From: a virus
Direction: 5' to 3' (one strand)
Length of the DNA: 55,178 bases
Virus record (IMG/VR): IMGVR_UViG_3300050821_002725
Span: 1-55,178 of that record
In this document: positions 37,276-47,033 of the stretch, one piece after another
Layout of the letters: each line of letters begins with the position of its first letter
Numbering within the stretch: the first letter of the stretch is position 1
Notes under the pieces: model-generated
What the model was told of the DNA's origin: nothing
Database searches by the model: none
The model's input: only the letters and a program-made list of their open reading frames with translations
Program-made: the position numbers and the translations under genes

Positions 37276-37625
37276 TTAACCGACTCAAACAACTCTGGCG
37301 CGGCCACAAAACCATCAAGGCGTGGATTGCTGGCGGCGGGATGTTGACTTCATGGGACACCGCTTTCACGAGGACGCAGACGTGCCTTGCATGTCCGATG
37401 AATCAGCGCGGCGGTTTTTGGGATTGGGTTGCGAGATTCTTCGCCAATGGAACACCGCTCCCAAAGAGGCCGGAAAATAGAAGGATAAGAACCTGCAAAG
37501 TCTGTCATTGCGCTCTGCGGGTTAAAATCCAGATGCCGCTGGTGGCGATTTTGCGTGACACGCCGCCTGAATCGCTGGATAACTACCCGTCAAATTGTTG
37601 GCTCCATAAGGAAACGAGCGAGTAA
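37272..37625 (+). CDS. Zinc-binding protein before the portal (117 aa)
   Basis: TCLACPMNQ, then CKVCHCALRVKIQMPL and a final NCWLHKE, give four or five cysteines arranged as a zinc ribbon. The start overlaps the previous stop (ATGA), and the stop overlaps the portal start (TAATG). Perhaps a small head-assembly cofactor. No family recognised. Confidence 0.65.
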   Translation: MINRLKQLWRGHKTIKAWIAGGGMLTSWDTAFTRTQTCLACPMNQRGGFWDWVARFFANGTPLPKRPENRRIRTCKVCHCALRVKIQMPLVAILRDTPPESLDNYPSNCWLHKETSE

Positions 37626-39934
37626 TGCAGTTCAAAACCGTCCAAGACATCCAAGACGCCATCTCGGCAGGCGATGACATTCGCCGGGTCCGGTCTGCCA
37701 ACAGGGCCGTCGTGAACAATGCCGCAAACGGCGTCCCGCCGATGAGCGATGACGAGGCGTTAAAGAACGGCCTCCACGTCAATGTCAACTGGCTTGAACA
37801 ATCGGAACTCCACTTGCAGGCCCGGAGCCAATTCCTGACCGGGTTTTACCACTCGCAACGGTTCTTCACAATCAACTTCGCCGATGACTCAAATGTTCCG
37901 CTGGACAAACAGGCGAAGTGGGAAGCGTGGATAACTCGGAAAATCAACAAAGTCCTTCGCAAATCCAAGGCGTATTTCTTCCTGCATGACAATCGGTTTG
38001 CGTCTGTAGTAGCTCACGGTATCGGCCCGTGCGCTTGGTTCGACCGGATGAAATGGTGTCCAAAGTATGTCGCCATTGAGGATTTATACGTCCCGACGGA
38101 CACCACGACGGACTTTGAGAATCTAGAATGGTTTGCCATCCGGTTCAATTATACCGAGGGCGAACTTGCGAGGCGGGCTTTCGGTCCCAACCGAATCAAA
38201 GGCTGGAAAAAGAAGCGCGTTGCCGCCGTCCTGAAGGAGTATCACGAGGAAAACACCGAGACGGTGCCAACCTATAACTGGAACACCGACCCGGAGAAAA
38301 TGTGGGAACTCATCAAGCAGAACGGGTTTTACACTTCGGATGCGGTGCCGACAATTCCCATGCTTCACTTTTGGTTCAAAGACAACGACGCCAACGGCAA
38401 GACTGTGTGGAAAATGCGAGTGATTCCTGATTCATCATGCAAGGGTGGCGACATTCAGGAATTTCTTTACGACCCGTCAACGGACGACAACGAGAAGAAA
38501 ATTAACGGCGATGAAAAGCCGTTCGCCCGATGCCTCGACCACATTTTGCATTGCCAATTCGGCAATTTGAGCAACAAGGCTCCGTTCACATACAACGCCG
38601 TGCGTTCGCTTGGCTTCCTGCTGTTGGAACCGTGTTACTGGTCAAACCTGATGTTGTGCCGGCTTGTGCAGCACACATGGGAACAATTCAATACGTGGTT
38701 GCGTATCACCGACCCCGCCGGAAAAGGTCGGGCGCAACTAGTGAACCTTTTCGACAAGGGCGTCATCCCGGACGGCGTTACCATCGTGCCAAAAGACCAG
38801 CGGCACCAGATTGAGCCGGAGCTTGCCGAGATGGTCATGGCTCGGATGAAACAACTCATGGGTGAGAAGGCCGCTCAATACACCCAGCAGGCCGATACCG
38901 GCACGAAAAAAGAACAAACGGCCTTTGAGACAAGCGTGAAGATGCAGCAGGTAAACGCGATGACGGCGGCGATTTTGACCCGCGCTTTCATTTTGGAGAA
39001 TTTTCTGTACGAAGAAATCTGTCGCCGGTTCTGTCTTGTGGATTCCAATGACCCTGACGTGATGGATTTCCAGAAAGAGGCGAAGAAATACGGCATTCCA
39101 CAGCAATTTTTGAATGTCGAATTGTGGGATGTTGCGCCGGAGATTCCCAGCGGTGCTGGAAATCCGACTCTGGAAATGGCAAAAAACCAGATGCTCATGC
39201 AGTATCGCAGTCTTTACCCGCCACCGGCTCAACAGGAGATTTTGCAACGGTTCACCATTCAGAACACCGACCCGCGCACGGCTGAACGCTGGGTGCCGCT
39301 TGGGAAGCCTGCCGTCACGGATGCTCAAACTGATGCCGAGAACAAATTCGGCACGCTCATGCAGGGAGTCCCTGTCAACGCCAAGCCTGAATTCTCGCCC
39401 ATTGAACAAGTTGAAGTGCTTCTCGTTTTGATGGGCAAGAAATGCGATGACATTGAAAAAACAGGCAATATCACGGACGAAAACACCTTGCTTGGTCTGA
39501 CCACGGTGTCTGCGTTCACAAAGCAACTGGTTGGCCGAGTTGCGCAAGACCCGCAAGAAAAACAGTTGGCGCGTAAATTCAGCGATGTTCTCGGTCAAAT
39601 TGACAATCTCATCAAAGGTTTCACACAACGGCTGGCGGAACAAAAGAAGCAGCAAAACAGTCATGCTGACCCGAAGGCGATTGCTCAGGCCCAGGCAACG
39701 ATGCTGCAAGCCAAGACCAAGCAAAAGGTGACGGCGGTTGGAGCCGCTCAAAAGATGATGCAAAAGAAGGCTGCTTTTGCAGCGGAGCAGAAGCGGAAGG
39801 ACGCCGCAACCGCGCTTGAAGAACGGCGCAAAACAATCAGAACTATTGGCGATGAAAAAAGGAAAAACTTATCGACCATCGCGGAAACGCAGCGCAGTCG
39901 CATCAAGGCGTTACGCGAAGGCGGCAGTGAGTAG
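37625..39934 (+). CDS. Portal protein (769 aa)
   Basis: The length and features are those of podophage portals: an N-terminal WLEQSELHLQARSQFLTGFY, a beta-rich wing (IPMLHFWFKDND), a helical stem region and a long coiled, Gln/Lys/Ala-rich C-terminal barrel (from about 650; for example QKKAAFAAEQKRKDAATALE). It forms the dodecameric vertex through which DNA enters and leaves. It follows terminase in the usual order. Confidence 0.8.
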   Translation: MQFKTVQDIQDAISAGDDIRRVRSANRAVVNNAANGVPPMSDDEALKNGLHVNVNWLEQSELHLQARSQFLTGFYHSQRFFTINFADDSNVPLDKQAKWEAWITRKINKVLRKSKAYFFLHDNRFASVVAHGIGPCAWFDRMKWCPKYVAIEDLYVPTDTTTDFENLEWFAIRFNYTEGELARRAFGPNRIKGWKKKRVAAVLKEYHEENTETVPTYNWNTDPEKMWELIKQNGFYTSDAVPTIPMLHFWFKDNDANGKTVWKMRVIPDSSCKGGDIQEFLYDPSTDDNEKKINGDEKPFARCLDHILHCQFGNLSNKAPFTYNAVRSLGFLLLEPCYWSNLMLCRLVQHTWEQFNTWLRITDPAGKGRAQLVNLFDKGVIPDGVTIVPKDQRHQIEPELAEMVMARMKQLMGEKAAQYTQQADTGTKKEQTAFETSVKMQQVNAMTAAILTRAFILENFLYEEICRRFCLVDSNDPDVMDFQKEAKKYGIPQQFLNVELWDVAPEIPSGAGNPTLEMAKNQMLMQYRSLYPPPAQQEILQRFTIQNTDPRTAERWVPLGKPAVTDAQTDAENKFGTLMQGVPVNAKPEFSPIEQVEVLLVLMGKKCDDIEKTGNITDENTLLGLTTVSAFTKQLVGRVAQDPQEKQLARKFSDVLGQIDNLIKGFTQRLAEQKKQQNSHADPKAIAQAQATMLQAKTKQKVTAVGAAQKMMQKKAAFAAEQKRKDAATALEERRKTIRTIGDEKRKNLSTIAETQRSRIKALREGGSE

Positions 39935-41411: not shown

Positions 41412-41942
41412 TCACGCCGATTTCGTGGTGGGGTTTCGATAAGGCTCTGGTTGTGTATCTTTCCGTAAATACAACGGGTGCTTCGGAGTCCAATCTGAAT
41501 TCAACCCAAGGTGGTGCGTTTGAATTCCCTCATCACGCAGCATATCGCATACTAAAATTCCTCTCCCTATGAAATTTCCACCATTGCCCCACGCGCAAAT
41601 CACAAGCCCGGCTTCCTTTGCTGTATTTATCAATATTTGGTCGTTTTGCGACCCTATAGGGTCGTCTGCGGCCATCATGTCTTTTGGTTTGGTGGCGCGG
41701 AATGCAAACAGGTTGGCCATACACAGCGCACCGTAACCCCACACCTTTGCAAAAGCAATGCAACGGCGAATTGTCGGGTCGTCTTTTGTTTCGTCTGCGG
41801 TGGAAGGATTAAGACCGATGAACAAAACAAAGCCATCCTTCATTTTATTGCCGCCTTCCCAAAGAAACTCACCGGCGAACTCTCTCCACAACTGATAACG
41901 ATAAACCCTATCCTCGCTGAAAATGGTTTCGTGTAGATTCAC
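41412..41942 (-). CDS. DUF1643 family protein (176 aa)
   Basis: FVLFIGLNPSTADETKDDPT, then IRRCIAFAKVWGYGALCMAN and LFAFRATKPKDM, with a late VICAWGNGG, is the DUF1643 signature. The family is found in phages and bacteria near DNA-modification or defence genes and has no proven activity. Last gene of the leftward small-gene operon. Confidence 0.85.
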   Translation of the reverse strand: MNLHETIFSEDRVYRYQLWREFAGEFLWEGGNKMKDGFVLFIGLNPSTADETKDDPTIRRCIAFAKVWGYGALCMANLFAFRATKPKDMMAADDPIGSQNDQILINTAKEAGLVICAWGNGGNFIGRGILVCDMLRDEGIQTHHLGLNSDWTPKHPLYLRKDTQPEPYRNPTTKSA

Positions 41943-42621: not shown

Positions 42622-42890
42622 TCCGTTTGCGGGTTCGATGGGTTAGGAGGTGGGAAGTTTCCAAGCCATCGAATCAGCCAATTTACTTTCGGTGGTTTTG
42701 GTTCAAACAGTTTTGCCTCTGGCCCGCAACGGTTTCCCGCATCGCGCTCTGAACGCATATTGGCGCAACAGTCGTAATCAGCCGCCCTTGTCGTCAGGTT
42801 TCCACGCGATGACTTCGGATGACGGCACTCTCCTGTTGTGGGGTAAATCTTCGCCCACTTGCAATCTTCGCAGTATTTCACATCGCTCAT
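42618..42890 (-). CDS. Cys-rich protein, paralog of 3675-3932 (90 aa)
   Basis: YCEDCKWAKIYPTTGECRHP, then the shared RCGPEAKLFEPKPPK block, mark the same small zinc-binding family as the rightward gene at 3675. A Pro/Asn-rich tail follows. Both ends overlap neighbours by ATGA. Function unknown. Confidence 0.75.
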   Translation of the reverse strand: MSDVKYCEDCKWAKIYPTTGECRHPKSSRGNLTTRAADYDCCANMRSERDAGNRCGPEAKLFEPKPPKVNWLIRWLGNFPPPNPSNPQTE

Positions 42891-43294
42891 ATTATCAATG
42901 CCTTTTCGGTTAATTTCCGTTCGTCCTCATCAGTGACGCTCCAATCCCACGGAGCTTTATGTTTTCCTTCGCCCGCAAGATTTAGGAAATTTTTTGTCAC
43001 TTGATTTTGTGCCCCGCACATCAGAAGCCAGCCGCAGCACATTTCGTGAGTCTCGTGGCATCTGAATTCACGTTGCTCAATGGCGCATTTAAGGGCGTCC
43101 ATGACAGTTGCAACGCAGCGATTCGGAACTGTGCCTTTGCTGAACGCGCAAGTGCCGCACGGCTCCCTGTGGTTTGGGTATTTGTGCCTCATCGCCTCAA
43201 GCTCAATGGAAACCATGACCGCTAATTGAACGCCAAGCATTGCGCCTTCTGGACTTGGTATATTTCTCACTAAACCTTCTGGTGTTTTACTCAT
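42887..43294 (-). CDS. Cys-rich leader gene of the 43-kb leftward operon (135 aa)
   Basis: CGTCAFSKGTVPNRC, CAIEQREFRC and HEMCCGWLLMCG provide up to nine cysteines, so one or two zinc sites are likely. The start codon comes 10 bases after a strong hairpin and T-rich tract and has no ribosome site. First gene of the operon running to 41412. Confidence 0.65.
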   Translation of the reverse strand: MSKTPEGLVRNIPSPEGAMLGVQLAVMVSIELEAMRHKYPNHREPCGTCAFSKGTVPNRCVATVMDALKCAIEQREFRCHETHEMCCGWLLMCGAQNQVTKNFLNLAGEGKHKAPWDWSVTDEDERKLTEKALII

Positions 43295-43386
43295 AAAAAG
43301 AAATCGCCGCGTGCTGGGAAATTGTTGAAGTTGCCCGCCCCGAAAAGGGCTGGCACGCGGCGAAAATACCGTCTGACAACTTCAAC
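43295..43386 (-). promoter_or_regulatory. Pseudoknot-like leader with terminator-like T tract
   Basis: Two perfect 10-bp inverted repeats interleave: CGCCGCGTGC (43305-43314) with GCACGCGGCG (43353-43362), and GTTGAAGTTG (43324-43333) with CAACTTCAAC (43377-43386). A smaller GCCC/GGGC hairpin lies in the middle. Read leftward, the last strand is followed by ATTTCTTTTT and then directly the ATG at 43294. This could form an H-type pseudoknot or an attenuator controlling the operon. Confidence 0.65.
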
Positions 43387-43886
43387 ATGCGGGCAGTGTG
43401 GCAAAGCGGCGTGAGGGTGACAAGAGAAAAATGCGAAAATCTTCACTTTTATCTGGACAGGATTGCTTCCATCTGCTTCACTCAGCACATGCGATTGGCG
43501 TCGTTGAATTTTGCTTGGGGGTCTGGTGAACGATTCCAGACAGGTTTCGAGAAAGAGCATGGACACAAAGCGGATTTGGATACCGCGATTGACCGGAGGG
43601 AATATCGAGACTGTAAAAGCGTGGTCCGCGCTGCCGGTGTGAACCCGGCCCTTAGCACCACTTTGCCGCATCCCGCCTCACACGAGGCACGCGCCGCCAA
43701 TCGCTTTGGGGTGCGGCAGTTCAATTTCCGGCCAGCGCCCAATGGCAGTATTCCCTGCCGTGTGAGTGTGGACACTTGCGCAGCCTCCACAGCCCGTGGC
43801 CACGGGTGGCAAAATGCACCAAAAGGCAAAGCGATCAGGAGGGCCGCACCGGAATTCACTTTCCACTCCGCAACTTCACTGAGGGG
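43387..43886. other. 500-bp noncoding region dense in hairpins
   Basis: I find no convincing gene between the divergent starts at 43294 and 43887. Stems include GTCTGG/CCAGAC (43521-43526, 43536-43541), GCCGG/CCGGC (43633-43637, 43645-43649) inside GTGGT/ACCAC (43621-43625, 43657-43661), and GCCTC/GAGGC (43675-43679, 43684-43688). There is also CTCACACG/CGTGTGAG (43677-43684, 43759-43766), GGCAG/CTGCC (43744-43748, 43755-43759) and the perfect 14-bp palindrome CCCGTGGCCACGGG (43793-43806). A structured RNA or a replication/regulatory site is possible. Confidence 0.5.
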
Positions 43887-44081
43887 ATGAACGCGAATAC
43901 CAAAGAGGCGTTGAAAGCTTTTATCGAGTCATCTGCAAGGGCGAACTCAATTCTGACGACTTTCGCGATTGCCACCTGTCCCGATGCCGAACAGCGGCTT
44001 GGAGATTACGATAAGAGCATCCAGTCCAAAGCCGACGCTCTCATTGCCGCCCTCGACTCCGACGAAACCATTGAAATGTGA
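43887..44081 (+). CDS. Small helical protein (64 aa)
   Basis: MNANTKEALKAFIESSARAN, then AEQRLGDYDKSIQSKADALI, forms two to three amphipathic helices with an acidic tail. GAGGGG directly touches the ATG. No family recognised. It forms a two-gene rightward unit with the following membrane protein. Confidence 0.6.
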   Translation: MNANTKEALKAFIESSARANSILTTFAIATCPDAEQRLGDYDKSIQSKADALIAALDSDETIEM

Positions 44082-44089
44082 GGGATGAA

Positions 44090-44185
44090 ATGGACGAGTT
44101 CACTGGAATTTTTATTGCTGTCGTCTTGGCGTGTGGCGGAATTGGATTGATTATCGGCGAGATTCTTGCCAGACGGCGAAAATAA
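44090..44185 (+). CDS. Single-span membrane peptide (31 aa)
   Basis: The chain MDEFTGIFIAVVLACGGIGL, then IIGEILARRRK, is one membrane helix with an acidic outside end and a basic inside end. GAGGG lies 7 bases before the ATG. Such tiny phage membrane peptides often affect the host envelope, but the role here is unknown. Confidence 0.6.
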   Translation: MDEFTGIFIAVVLACGGIGLIIGEILARRRK

Positions 44186-44250
44186 CCCCCTTGCTGGACG
44201 AATCGAATTTAGAGATTGATTCATTCCCTCGCGGTGTCGAATTGGGGGTT
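44184..44250. terminator. Weak bidirectional terminator candidate
   Basis: AACCCCC (44184-44190) pairs with GGGGGTT (44244-44250) between facing genes. The loop is long (53 bases) and no clear T run follows, so activity is uncertain. Confidence 0.3.
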
Positions 44251-44479
44251 AGGCGGCTACTTGCTGGTTGACAGCTTCCGGCGCGACAGGGAGCGCGCCC
44301 TTAATCGACTCGACGCAATTCGGACAAATCGCCAGTTCAATTTTCTCACGCTGGTCTTTGCCGGATTTCACTTTTAACACAAGCCAGTCGGACGGTGGAG
44401 GGAGTTTTGGAATCAGTTCAAGCTCTGCCGTCAGTTGGCAGCGGTCGCATCGGTAGGAGCATGTGATGATTTTAGGCAT
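44249..44479 (-). CDS. Zinc-ribbon protein (76 aa)
   Basis: CSYRCDRCQLTAELE and, 35 residues later, ICPNCVESIKG form two CxxC pairs of a zinc ribbon. The middle (WLVLKVKSGKDQREKI) is beta-like. Last gene of the leftward replication/modification operon. Confidence 0.7.
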   Translation of the reverse strand: MPKIITCSYRCDRCQLTAELELIPKLPPPSDWLVLKVKSGKDQREKIELAICPNCVESIKGALPVAPEAVNQQVAA

Positions 44480-45392: not shown

Positions 45393-45791
45393 TCACAACG
45401 TCCTCCTAAATTCTAGGAGCATGGCAATCGCTCTCGCTCCCGCCGCGACCGCCTCAGCCGTTTGAGGAACATCGCTTCGGCCTGTGGCCCTGTGAACTTC
45501 TGCCCGGCCTGTGGGCATTCTGATAACGCGGGCCTTGGCGCGGGCTTCCGCGAGCGTTTCTTCAAAGCCTTCGGTGTCTCGGATGAGATTCGAGAATGGC
45601 AACGCGCCCGACCTTCGTGACTGCTCTTTGATGCCGCGTTTGATATGCCCAATCACGAGTTCAAGGTCGCGCTTGTCCCATCCCTTCGCAATCCAGATTT
45701 CCCATTGCCACACTCGCGTCATGTCCAAAACTATCGGCAGGCTGGTCAAACCCACGTAACAGGCGTGTAAGAGGGTGATTTGGTCGTTCAT
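45393..45791 (-). CDS. Replication-accessory-like helical protein (132 aa)
   Basis: The ATG at 45791 overlaps the methyltransferase stop. WQWEIWIAKGWDKRDLELVI, then GHIKRGIKEQSRRSGALPFS, resembles the C-terminal helical domain often fused to phage replication proteins (DnaD/helicase-loader type). Here it is a separate gene near a replication-like protein (47212). The link is an inference. Confidence 0.5.
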   Translation of the reverse strand: MNDQITLLHACYVGLTSLPIVLDMTRVWQWEIWIAKGWDKRDLELVIGHIKRGIKEQSRRSGALPFSNLIRDTEGFEETLAEARAKARVIRMPTGRAEVHRATGRSDVPQTAEAVAAGARAIAMLLEFRRTL

Positions 45792-46912
45792 ATTATTTGT
45801 CGGATTGCTCTGGCGACGGCTTGTGCGACTTGCGGGACAATTGCATCCCCGGTGCATCGCGCAGAGGCTTGAGCCAATGCAGGGGAAATCCCATGAACCA
45901 ACACTGGAATTCCGGTGTTAGTTTCCATCCACCAATCGGAGCTTGTAACCCTTCCACGCATGTCTGGACAGCGGCAGTCGTCGGTTTTCCGCCCTGACTG
46001 TATTTCGTTTTCCTGTTCGCAGCGGCGTTGCCAGTCAGCGTCGGCAAGAGTTGGCCCCGAATAACTGCGCTCAGTGGAATGGTTTTGCCGCCCTTTTCCT
46101 GACGGCGTTTCATCACTCCTGAATCCAACCGGCCCCGGTCCCTCGTGTCCGAGGCAATCATTGTTGGAAGAAGATGTCTTGCCGTTCTCGTCAACAGGTC
46201 GTCGCCGAATCCCCTCTCCTTGCAATTCAAATCGACCCCACCCCGATTCGCGTTCAACGTCGGCAGAAGTTTGGACGCAGCGTAACTGCCCACTGAATTG
46301 TTCCCTCCCCACTTCGTCGCATTGGCGTTTTTGTTCTGCCGCATTGGTTGCGTGTCGAGAGTCGGCACCGATGATGATGAGCCGGAAACGCAGATGCCCG
46401 GCACCAAACAGCGCAGCGGGAATAGGTGTCCACAGACAATCATACCCGATCTCGGCCAATCCAGACACAATTCCGTTGAAGGCAGTTCCGTTAATTCCTT
46501 CTTCCCCGTCCCCATTGCCTTTAGCGAAAGACACTGCTGGCGGGTTCTCAAACACGCAGAATCGCGGTCGTAACTCGCCAACGACTCGGATGGCGTCACC
46601 CCAAAGCCAGCGGGCATCGGCAGTTCCACGCCGGTTTCCGAGAGTTGACACAGACTGGCATGGAGGACCTCCGACAATGACCGAAGGACGGCCAACCGTT
46701 GCGAGAATCCTTGCAGAGAAGTCGGGCTTGGTAATGTCTCCGAAGTTCGGCACGTCGGGGTAGTGGTAACTTCCGACGATGTTTTTATCGGAGTTGATTT
46801 CGGACACTCCAATTGTCCTGAATCCTTCCGCCTCAAATCCGATGGAGAATCCCCTGATTCCAGCGAACAGTTCAATGACTGTCGGTTCATATTGTTTTTC
46901 AGAGTCTATCAT
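45788..46912 (-). CDS. Cytosine-C5 DNA methyltransferase (374 aa)
   Basis: Motif I TVIELFAGIRGFSIGFEAEG, motif IV with the catalytic Cys (VIVGGPPCQSVSTLGNRRGT), motif VI FENPPAVSF (usual ENV is ENP here), motif VIII HLRFRLIIIG and motif X GDAIVPQVAQAVARAI appear in order. A long hydrophilic target-recognition stretch lies between VIII and X. It should methylate cytosines in phage DNA against host restriction. The start is uncertain: 46912 fits the domain best, and 46969/46972 are in-frame alternatives. A second frame of the same DNA also looks protein-like. Confidence 0.85.
   Translation of the reverse strand: MIDSEKQYEPTVIELFAGIRGFSIGFEAEGFRTIGVSEINSDKNIVGSYHYPDVPNFGDITKPDFSARILATVGRPSVIVGGPPCQSVSTLGNRRGTADARWLWGDAIRVVGELRPRFCVFENPPAVSFAKGNGDGEEGINGTAFNGIVSGLAEIGYDCLWTPIPAALFGAGHLRFRLIIIGADSRHATNAAEQKRQCDEVGREQFSGQLRCVQTSADVERESGWGRFELQGEGIRRRPVDENGKTSSSNNDCLGHEGPGPVGFRSDETPSGKGRQNHSTERSYSGPTLADADWQRRCEQENEIQSGRKTDDCRCPDMRGRVTSSDWWMETNTGIPVLVHGISPALAQASARCTGDAIVPQVAQAVARAIRQII
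45793..46890 (-). other. Second, fully overlapping frame of the methyltransferase gene (365 codons)
   Basis: This frame is open for 365 codons and shows LCLDWPRSGMIVCGHLFPL, LLPTLNANRG, LLPTMIASDTRD, LLPTLTGNAA and LTPEFQCWFMGFPLHWL. The same ordered motifs (WPRSGM, repeated LPTPTA-like blocks, LxPxFVEWxMGFPxxW) define a protein family often annotated in phages. In many methyltransferase genes those motifs are frame-shifted images of the ADADG repeats and the VAHGxP motif. Both frames may be translated, or one may be a conserved shadow. Confidence 0.35.
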
Positions 46913-47033
46913 TCCGGTTGCGAGTTCGCAGAATGCCCCCGGCAAAAGGGGTATCTGCAAGAGTACCATCACTCTCGGCGCTGAGCCATGCAGTTTCTTC
47001 CTGAGCCTTTGGACAACCTTTCCGTGGCTTCAT
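46899..47033 (-). CDS. Small hypothetical protein (44 aa)
   Basis: The start overlaps the previous stop by ATGA. The protein MKPRKGCPKAQEETAWLSAE and onward is short and polar. Its end overlaps the proposed methyltransferase start by 14 bases. If the longer methyltransferase start is used the overlap grows to 74 bases. Confidence 0.45.
   Translation of the reverse strand: MKPRKGCPKAQEETAWLSAESDGTLADTPFAGGILRTRNRNDRL

Follow-up and report, generated by a model that had tools for sequence, protein, structure and literature searches.

A conserved pseudoknot element, predicted to act as a self-terminating RNA gene, in an uncultured group of phages

The locus and its crossed repeats

The window analysed here is a virus record of 55,178 bp, and its positions 43295-43886 score as non-coding on both strands under a codon model with the large ORFs as training set, with the next plus-strand gene of coding character at 43887-44081. 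Leftward of this stretch lies a minus-strand ORF (42887-43294) for a Cys-rich protein of 135 aa, which weakly matches phrog_14805 (E 1e-4); searches of viral contigs, phages and 50 related records gave no close relative of it. More minus-strand ORFs follow, including one for a DUF1643 protein (41412-41942). The element described here, referred to as W, occupies about 43295-43387 on the minus strand, directly before the 135-aa ORF.

The initial annotation had reported two perfect 10-bp inverted repeats that cross each other, and both are present and in fact 11 bp long. The first, TCGCCGCGTGC/GCACGCGGCGA, lies at 43304-43314 / 43353-43363 and the second, TGTTGAAGTTG/CAACTTCAACA, at 43323-43333 / 43377-43387, so that the two interleave in the order of an H-type pseudoknot. 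This is the only interleaved pair in the 55-kb window with both stems of at least 9 bp, while first-order Markov shuffles (n=40) averaged 0.025 such pairs with a 9-bp minimum and contained none with a minimum of 10 or 11 bp, and the analytic expectation for an 11+11 bp pair is ~5e-4 per window, which bears out the view that the arrangement is very unlikely by chance. Even with pseudoknots left out, the folding energies are low, at -43.9 kcal/mol for the plus strand (z -4.2) and -35.1 kcal/mol for the minus strand (z -2.1). A larger structured RNA of ~590 nt over 43295-43890 was also considered and rejected, as its folding z is only about -1.3 on both strands.

Read on the minus strand, the locus opens with a -35-like box, TTGTCA (43418-43423), at the same place relative to the first stem, S1, as TTGACA, TTGACG or TTGCCA in relatives (p=0.045 for W alone), and 17 nt past it, 7 nt before S1, with a -10-like hexamer, CACACT (43395-43400), a weak match identified by consensus only. 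The 5' arm of S1, TGTTGAAGTTG (43377-43387), is the predicted 5' end of the RNA, and its S1 score was reached in 0/400 local shuffles. It is followed by the AU-rich loop L1, TCAGACGGTATTT (43364-43376), in which, from reading the sequences, AUUU stands beside the second stem in most members, and by the 5' arm of that GC-rich stem, S2, TCGCCGCGTGC (43353-43363). Next comes an internal hairpin from the minus-strand fold, GCCCU-UUUC-GGGGC (43337-43350), with a GC-rich hairpin at the same position in relatives, and then the 3' arm of S1, CAACTTCAACA (43323-43333), whose place within the S2 loop makes the pseudoknot. Loop L3, ATTTCCCA (43315-43322; 0-19 nt in relatives), leads to the 3' arm of S2, GCACGCGGCGA (43304-43314); both S2 arms are assigned from the inverted repeat and from covariation. 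The stem energies in W are about -13.3 kcal/mol for S1 and -22.8 kcal/mol for S2, and in other members they range from -7.4 to -19.7 and from -17.2 to -34.7 kcal/mol, respectively.

As the initial annotation had noted, the last arm, read leftward, ends at 43304 and runs through TTTCTTTTT (43303-43295) into an ATG at 43294, the start of the 135-aa ORF, 9 nt past S2. W thereby has the form of an intrinsic terminator, with the GC-rich S2 (11 bp) followed at once by TTTCTTTTT, while termination itself is predicted; the S2 loop of 38 nt is longer than a simple terminator scanner allows. The ribosome site that had been described as missing is indeed missing before ATG 43294, but this is uninformative, because a Shine-Dalgarno sequence is also absent before most genes of this phage. 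Deeper within the 135-aa ORF there are in-frame alternative starts (GTG and ATG) with AGAAGG 4 nt upstream. A plus-strand reading of the locus, as a frameshift signal or as the leader of an ORF at 43387-43890, was rejected, since that ORF scores as non-coding and it is the minus strand that carries the U-tract and promoter box.

Several other features of the window were recorded. The ~450 nt at 43430-43886, upstream of the promoter box in the minus sense, have no coding character on either strand, and an imperfect inverted repeat of 13 nt (43397-43409/43658-43670) has its arms on either side of the box. Many start codons in the window are immediately preceded by AT-rich letters such as TAAT or TAT. 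An ORF for a C5 cytosine methyltransferase (PF00145) and a second long open frame share the minus strand at 45788-46972 and 45793-46890. No tRNA was found in the window.

Recurrence and covariation in related phages

The portal-like protein of the window (37625-39934) has no match in annotated phages and none in bacterial genomes, and annotated phages contain no DNA match of note to the window. Its relatives are IMG/VR contigs at 37-71% identity, to which further contigs were added through a 130-aa neighbour protein and through the terminase-like protein; the nearest portal relative, L013 (71%), stops short of the element's region. All loci were scanned with a descriptor made of two crossed stems, the second followed by a U-rich tract, with the promoter left out of the pattern. 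W, L015, L039/L043/L060 and L031/L050 scored 55.5-61.5 against a shuffled maximum of 46, and their stem sequences differ. Scans of whole genomes of relatives added L098, L092 (two sites), L087, L245 and L249. The close homologues of W, namely L214, L216, L217 and L220 in G026-G029, score only 44-47, as the outer S1 pairs in them are bulged and escape the descriptor. The same order of parts, with different stems, thus recurs in about a dozen other contigs or genomes of an uncultured group of ~55-kb phages.

The searches also returned negative and borderline results. Many of the group's genomes yielded no member when scanned over their full length, and ~1 Mb of flanks of terminase relatives, which served as a negative control, held no new high scorer besides the known L050 element. 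Two exact-pattern hits, L002 and L006, were dismissed as chance, as neither has repeats around it. Other hits scoring below 50 were left out of the member count, among them a possible member on the minus strand of L127 (position 2342 of the reverse complement; score 49), in which an S2 of 16 bp is followed by TTTTTAATATG. Separately, GTGGACA/TGTCCAC units cluster in both orientations at L031:18440-18600 and L050:14130-14290, where they possibly form an iteron-like DNA site.

Among members, the RNA length from S1 to S2 is 75-99 nt and the stems are 7-16 bp long. A U-rich tract occupies the same place behind a GC-rich stem in all of them, which in the hits holds by construction, the tract being part of the descriptor, and in W does not. 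A TTGACA-like box, typically TTGAC(A/G), lies ~33-37 nt before the first stem in W, L015, L039/L043/L060 and L031/L050, and L098 and the minus-strand site of L092 have no good -35 box. The recurrence of this box fixes the strand, with the RNA of W on the minus strand, in agreement with the leftward reading of the initial annotation, from which the promoter-like box was absent.

Covariation was assessed in an alignment, A8, of W, L214, L216, L043, L060 and L039 that spans the -35 box to the U-tract. All nine tested S2 pairs form in 6/6 sequences and four of the nine are changed on both sides, as is one of the six outer S1 pairs; the cells count sequences rather than independent events, and the sequences are few. 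Neither any of 500 shuffles nor any slid structure reaches the covariation score of A8. W is counted as largely unpaired at S1 in this alignment because MAFFT misplaced its S1 3' arm, its loop L3 being longer; its own S1 is perfect. The W group alone (three sequences) is a weak subset by itself, with two both-sided changes in S2 and a score matched by 52/500 shuffles. Three more both-sided changes separate L098 from L092, one in S1 (A-T to C-G) and two in S2 (T-A to A-T and A-T to G-C). Given S2, the S1 of W, L015, L092 minus, L087, L249, L043, L039 and L050 was equalled in 0-1/400 shuffles and that of L245 in 7/400, and values were marginal (11-49/400) in L214, L216, L098 and L092 plus.

Compensatory changes in homologues, the mark of a conserved structured RNA, are therefore present both within A8 and between L098 and L092. 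The initial annotation had proposed covariation in relatives as a check, with stems that do not covary speaking against its idea; the stems covary, which strongly supports an RNA element. The main weight of the covariation case lies in the replacement of whole stems between lineages while the architecture is kept.

A covariance model built from A8 with the S2 pairs only recovered W (E 3.6e-22), the L214 group (~1e-26) and the L043 group (<=1e-29), all of them training sequences or copies. Outside the training set, the L050/L031 element was found in the right place with 14 bits, first or tied first in two of the model searches, at an E of ~0.7-0.9 that is not significant, and the divergent members fell below significance. 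The best hit of one search, L278 (14.2 bits), has no pseudoknot.

A dedicated RNA gene and its alternatives

Promoter box, pseudoknot and U-tract are the common denominator of the members, and this leads us to prefer, as the probable explanation, a dedicated minus-strand gene for a self-terminating pseudoknot RNA of ~93 nt, whose 3' stem doubles as an intrinsic terminator. We infer that a promoter with the -35-like TTGTCA (43423-43418) would initiate the RNA at 43387, where S1 begins, or close to it, and that the ~93-nt RNA would fold into a pseudoknot of interlocked S1 (11 bp) and S2 (11 bp) with the small hairpin between them. S1 could form before S2 is complete, so that the pseudoknot would close as the polymerase reaches the U-tract, and since this tract directly follows S2, the same pseudoknot stem would serve as the intrinsic terminator and end the RNA at ~43295. 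With its 5' end paired and a terminator stem at its 3' end, the product is expected to be a stable small RNA, and it would most likely serve the phage as a regulator or decoy that works through its shape. Partial read-through would feed the gene that starts 9 nt behind, here the 135-aa ORF.

This last possibility connects to an alternative that we regard as tentative, in which the RNA forms the 5' leader on an early mRNA. Most transcription would then end at the pseudoknot terminator, and read-through into the ORF behind would depend on a signal in the form of a protein, a ligand, or a ribosome or RNA polymerase state; the start codon may in addition be masked by the stem. An attenuator was among the roles first suggested, and the terminator-form 3' stem with its U-tract agrees with it, as does the ATG of an ORF of at least 98 aa found 9-10 nt past S2 in W, L015, L050 and L249 and 16-22 nt past S2 in L092 minus, L245 and L087. 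SAM-II provides a precedent, being a known H-type pseudoknot leader for which a terminated sRNA is predicted at S. meliloti metZ (PMC9373788). Against a leader of this kind, no ORF of at least 40 aa starts with ATG within 60 nt of L214/L216, L043/L060 and L098, what follows L092 plus is a tRNA-like sequence, no fold was identified that could act as an alternative antiterminator, and the genes behind the members share no function. They encode the 135-aa protein in W, an MT-A70 methyltransferase in L015, a 98-aa protein, a PAPS-reductase domain in L249 and a 331-aa protein, and among the downstream proteins tested only those of L015 and L249 had a Pfam match. As an unrelated ORF lies 9-22 nt behind the RNA in about half of the lineages, the dedicated RNA may also throttle read-through, and we consider this either its second role or the main rival to it. 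The tRNA-like sequence (L092:5631-5705, plus strand) is degenerate, carries ACCA and lies directly behind one pseudoknot RNA; it reached 25.7 bits against the Rfam tRNA gathering threshold of 29 and was negative in ARAGORN.

At the locus of the L043 element, L044:6090-6310 (+) combines a TTGACA box with a structured stretch of another kind and with a plain hairpin terminator, GGCCGGCGAGG/CCTTGCCGGCC-TTTTCTTCT, suggesting that the RNA there may be exchanged. A plain terminator at the same place would also suit an improbable reading in which W does no more than insulate two modules as a strong intrinsic terminator, S1 being a stiffener and the RNA itself having no function, and S2 with its U-tract is terminator-shaped in all members. 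A terminator, however, needs no S1, no promoter box in front and no narrow RNA length (75-99 nt), and compensatory change keeps S1. Even less probable, to a degree that we would hardly expect it, is an element acting as DNA, its two spaced inverted repeats forming an operator pair or a site of replication or packaging. Inverted repeats are DNA palindromes too, but the arms are swapped wholesale between relatives with complementarity kept, the asymmetric order of promoter box, S1, S2 and U-tract recurs, and the element occurs on either strand relative to the portal gene. As to the other roles first suggested, a riboregulator fits in a loose sense only and a packaged RNA element found no support.

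For the dedicated RNA, the loops are not conserved between members and thus suggest no target, and the RNA of W has no long complementarity to its own phage, only 11-nt matches, so that no antisense target was found there. Conservation as shape, and not as sequence, points to a protein target. It is conceivable, if rather unlikely, that the members form a phage RNA class kept only as shape, self-terminating pseudoknots with freely rewritten stems, that would act as decoy or inhibitor of a host protein during infection (e.g., a defence ribonuclease, RNA polymerase or the ribosome).

Known pseudoknot RNAs and significance

An Rfam covariance search had been proposed as a further check, and it returned no match in 42800-44300 among the 4227 models of Rfam 15 at E up to 5, and at gathering thresholds no match in the whole window or in nine loci, eight of them holding members. 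The preQ1-II riboswitch is an H-type pseudoknot with an extra hairpin between its stems, as is W, from which it differs in that the stems of W are much longer and variable in sequence, and W has no Rfam match.

RydC of Escherichia and Salmonella is a pseudoknotted sRNA with a 3' poly-U tail, and its pseudoknot is needed for stability in vivo (PMC4337610). W resembles it as a small pseudoknot RNA with a 3' U tract, but RydC has an unpaired 5' seed and works with Hfq, whereas the predicted 5' end of W is paired in S1, the W-type stems, at 7-16 bp, are long, and W contains an internal hairpin and has no Rfam match. With SAM-II (e.g., S. meliloti metZ/metA; PMC9373788) W shares the position of a pseudoknot leader just before a gene; it differs in having no SAM-II match in Rfam at E up to 5 and in that the genes behind its members are of various kinds, with no methionine genes among them.

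It is proven that a phage can block host defence with a small pseudoknot RNA of its own: the repeats of phage PhiTE, once expanded, mimic the pseudoknot antitoxin ToxI (pseudo-ToxI; PMC3475682). ToxI, however, consists of 36-nt repeats, whereas W is a single ~93-nt unit without repeats or an Rfam match. No tandem pseudoknot units typical of a type III, ToxI-like antitoxin were found in 43000-43700, and the neighbour ORFs tested matched no toxin family in PHROGs or Pfam.

Our findings indicate that W is a real and conserved pseudoknot RNA that had not been listed before and belongs to a group of uncultured phages; its transcription, termination and function are predicted. They add a structured RNA that is absent from Rfam and shows compensatory changes across several lineages, in a group whose portal protein matches no annotated phage record. 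As the predicted terminator stem is part of the pseudoknot, the element permits a direct test of how a pseudoknot affects intrinsic termination, and it illustrates how visual inspection that turns up a lone pair of crossed repeats can open the way to a new RNA family.
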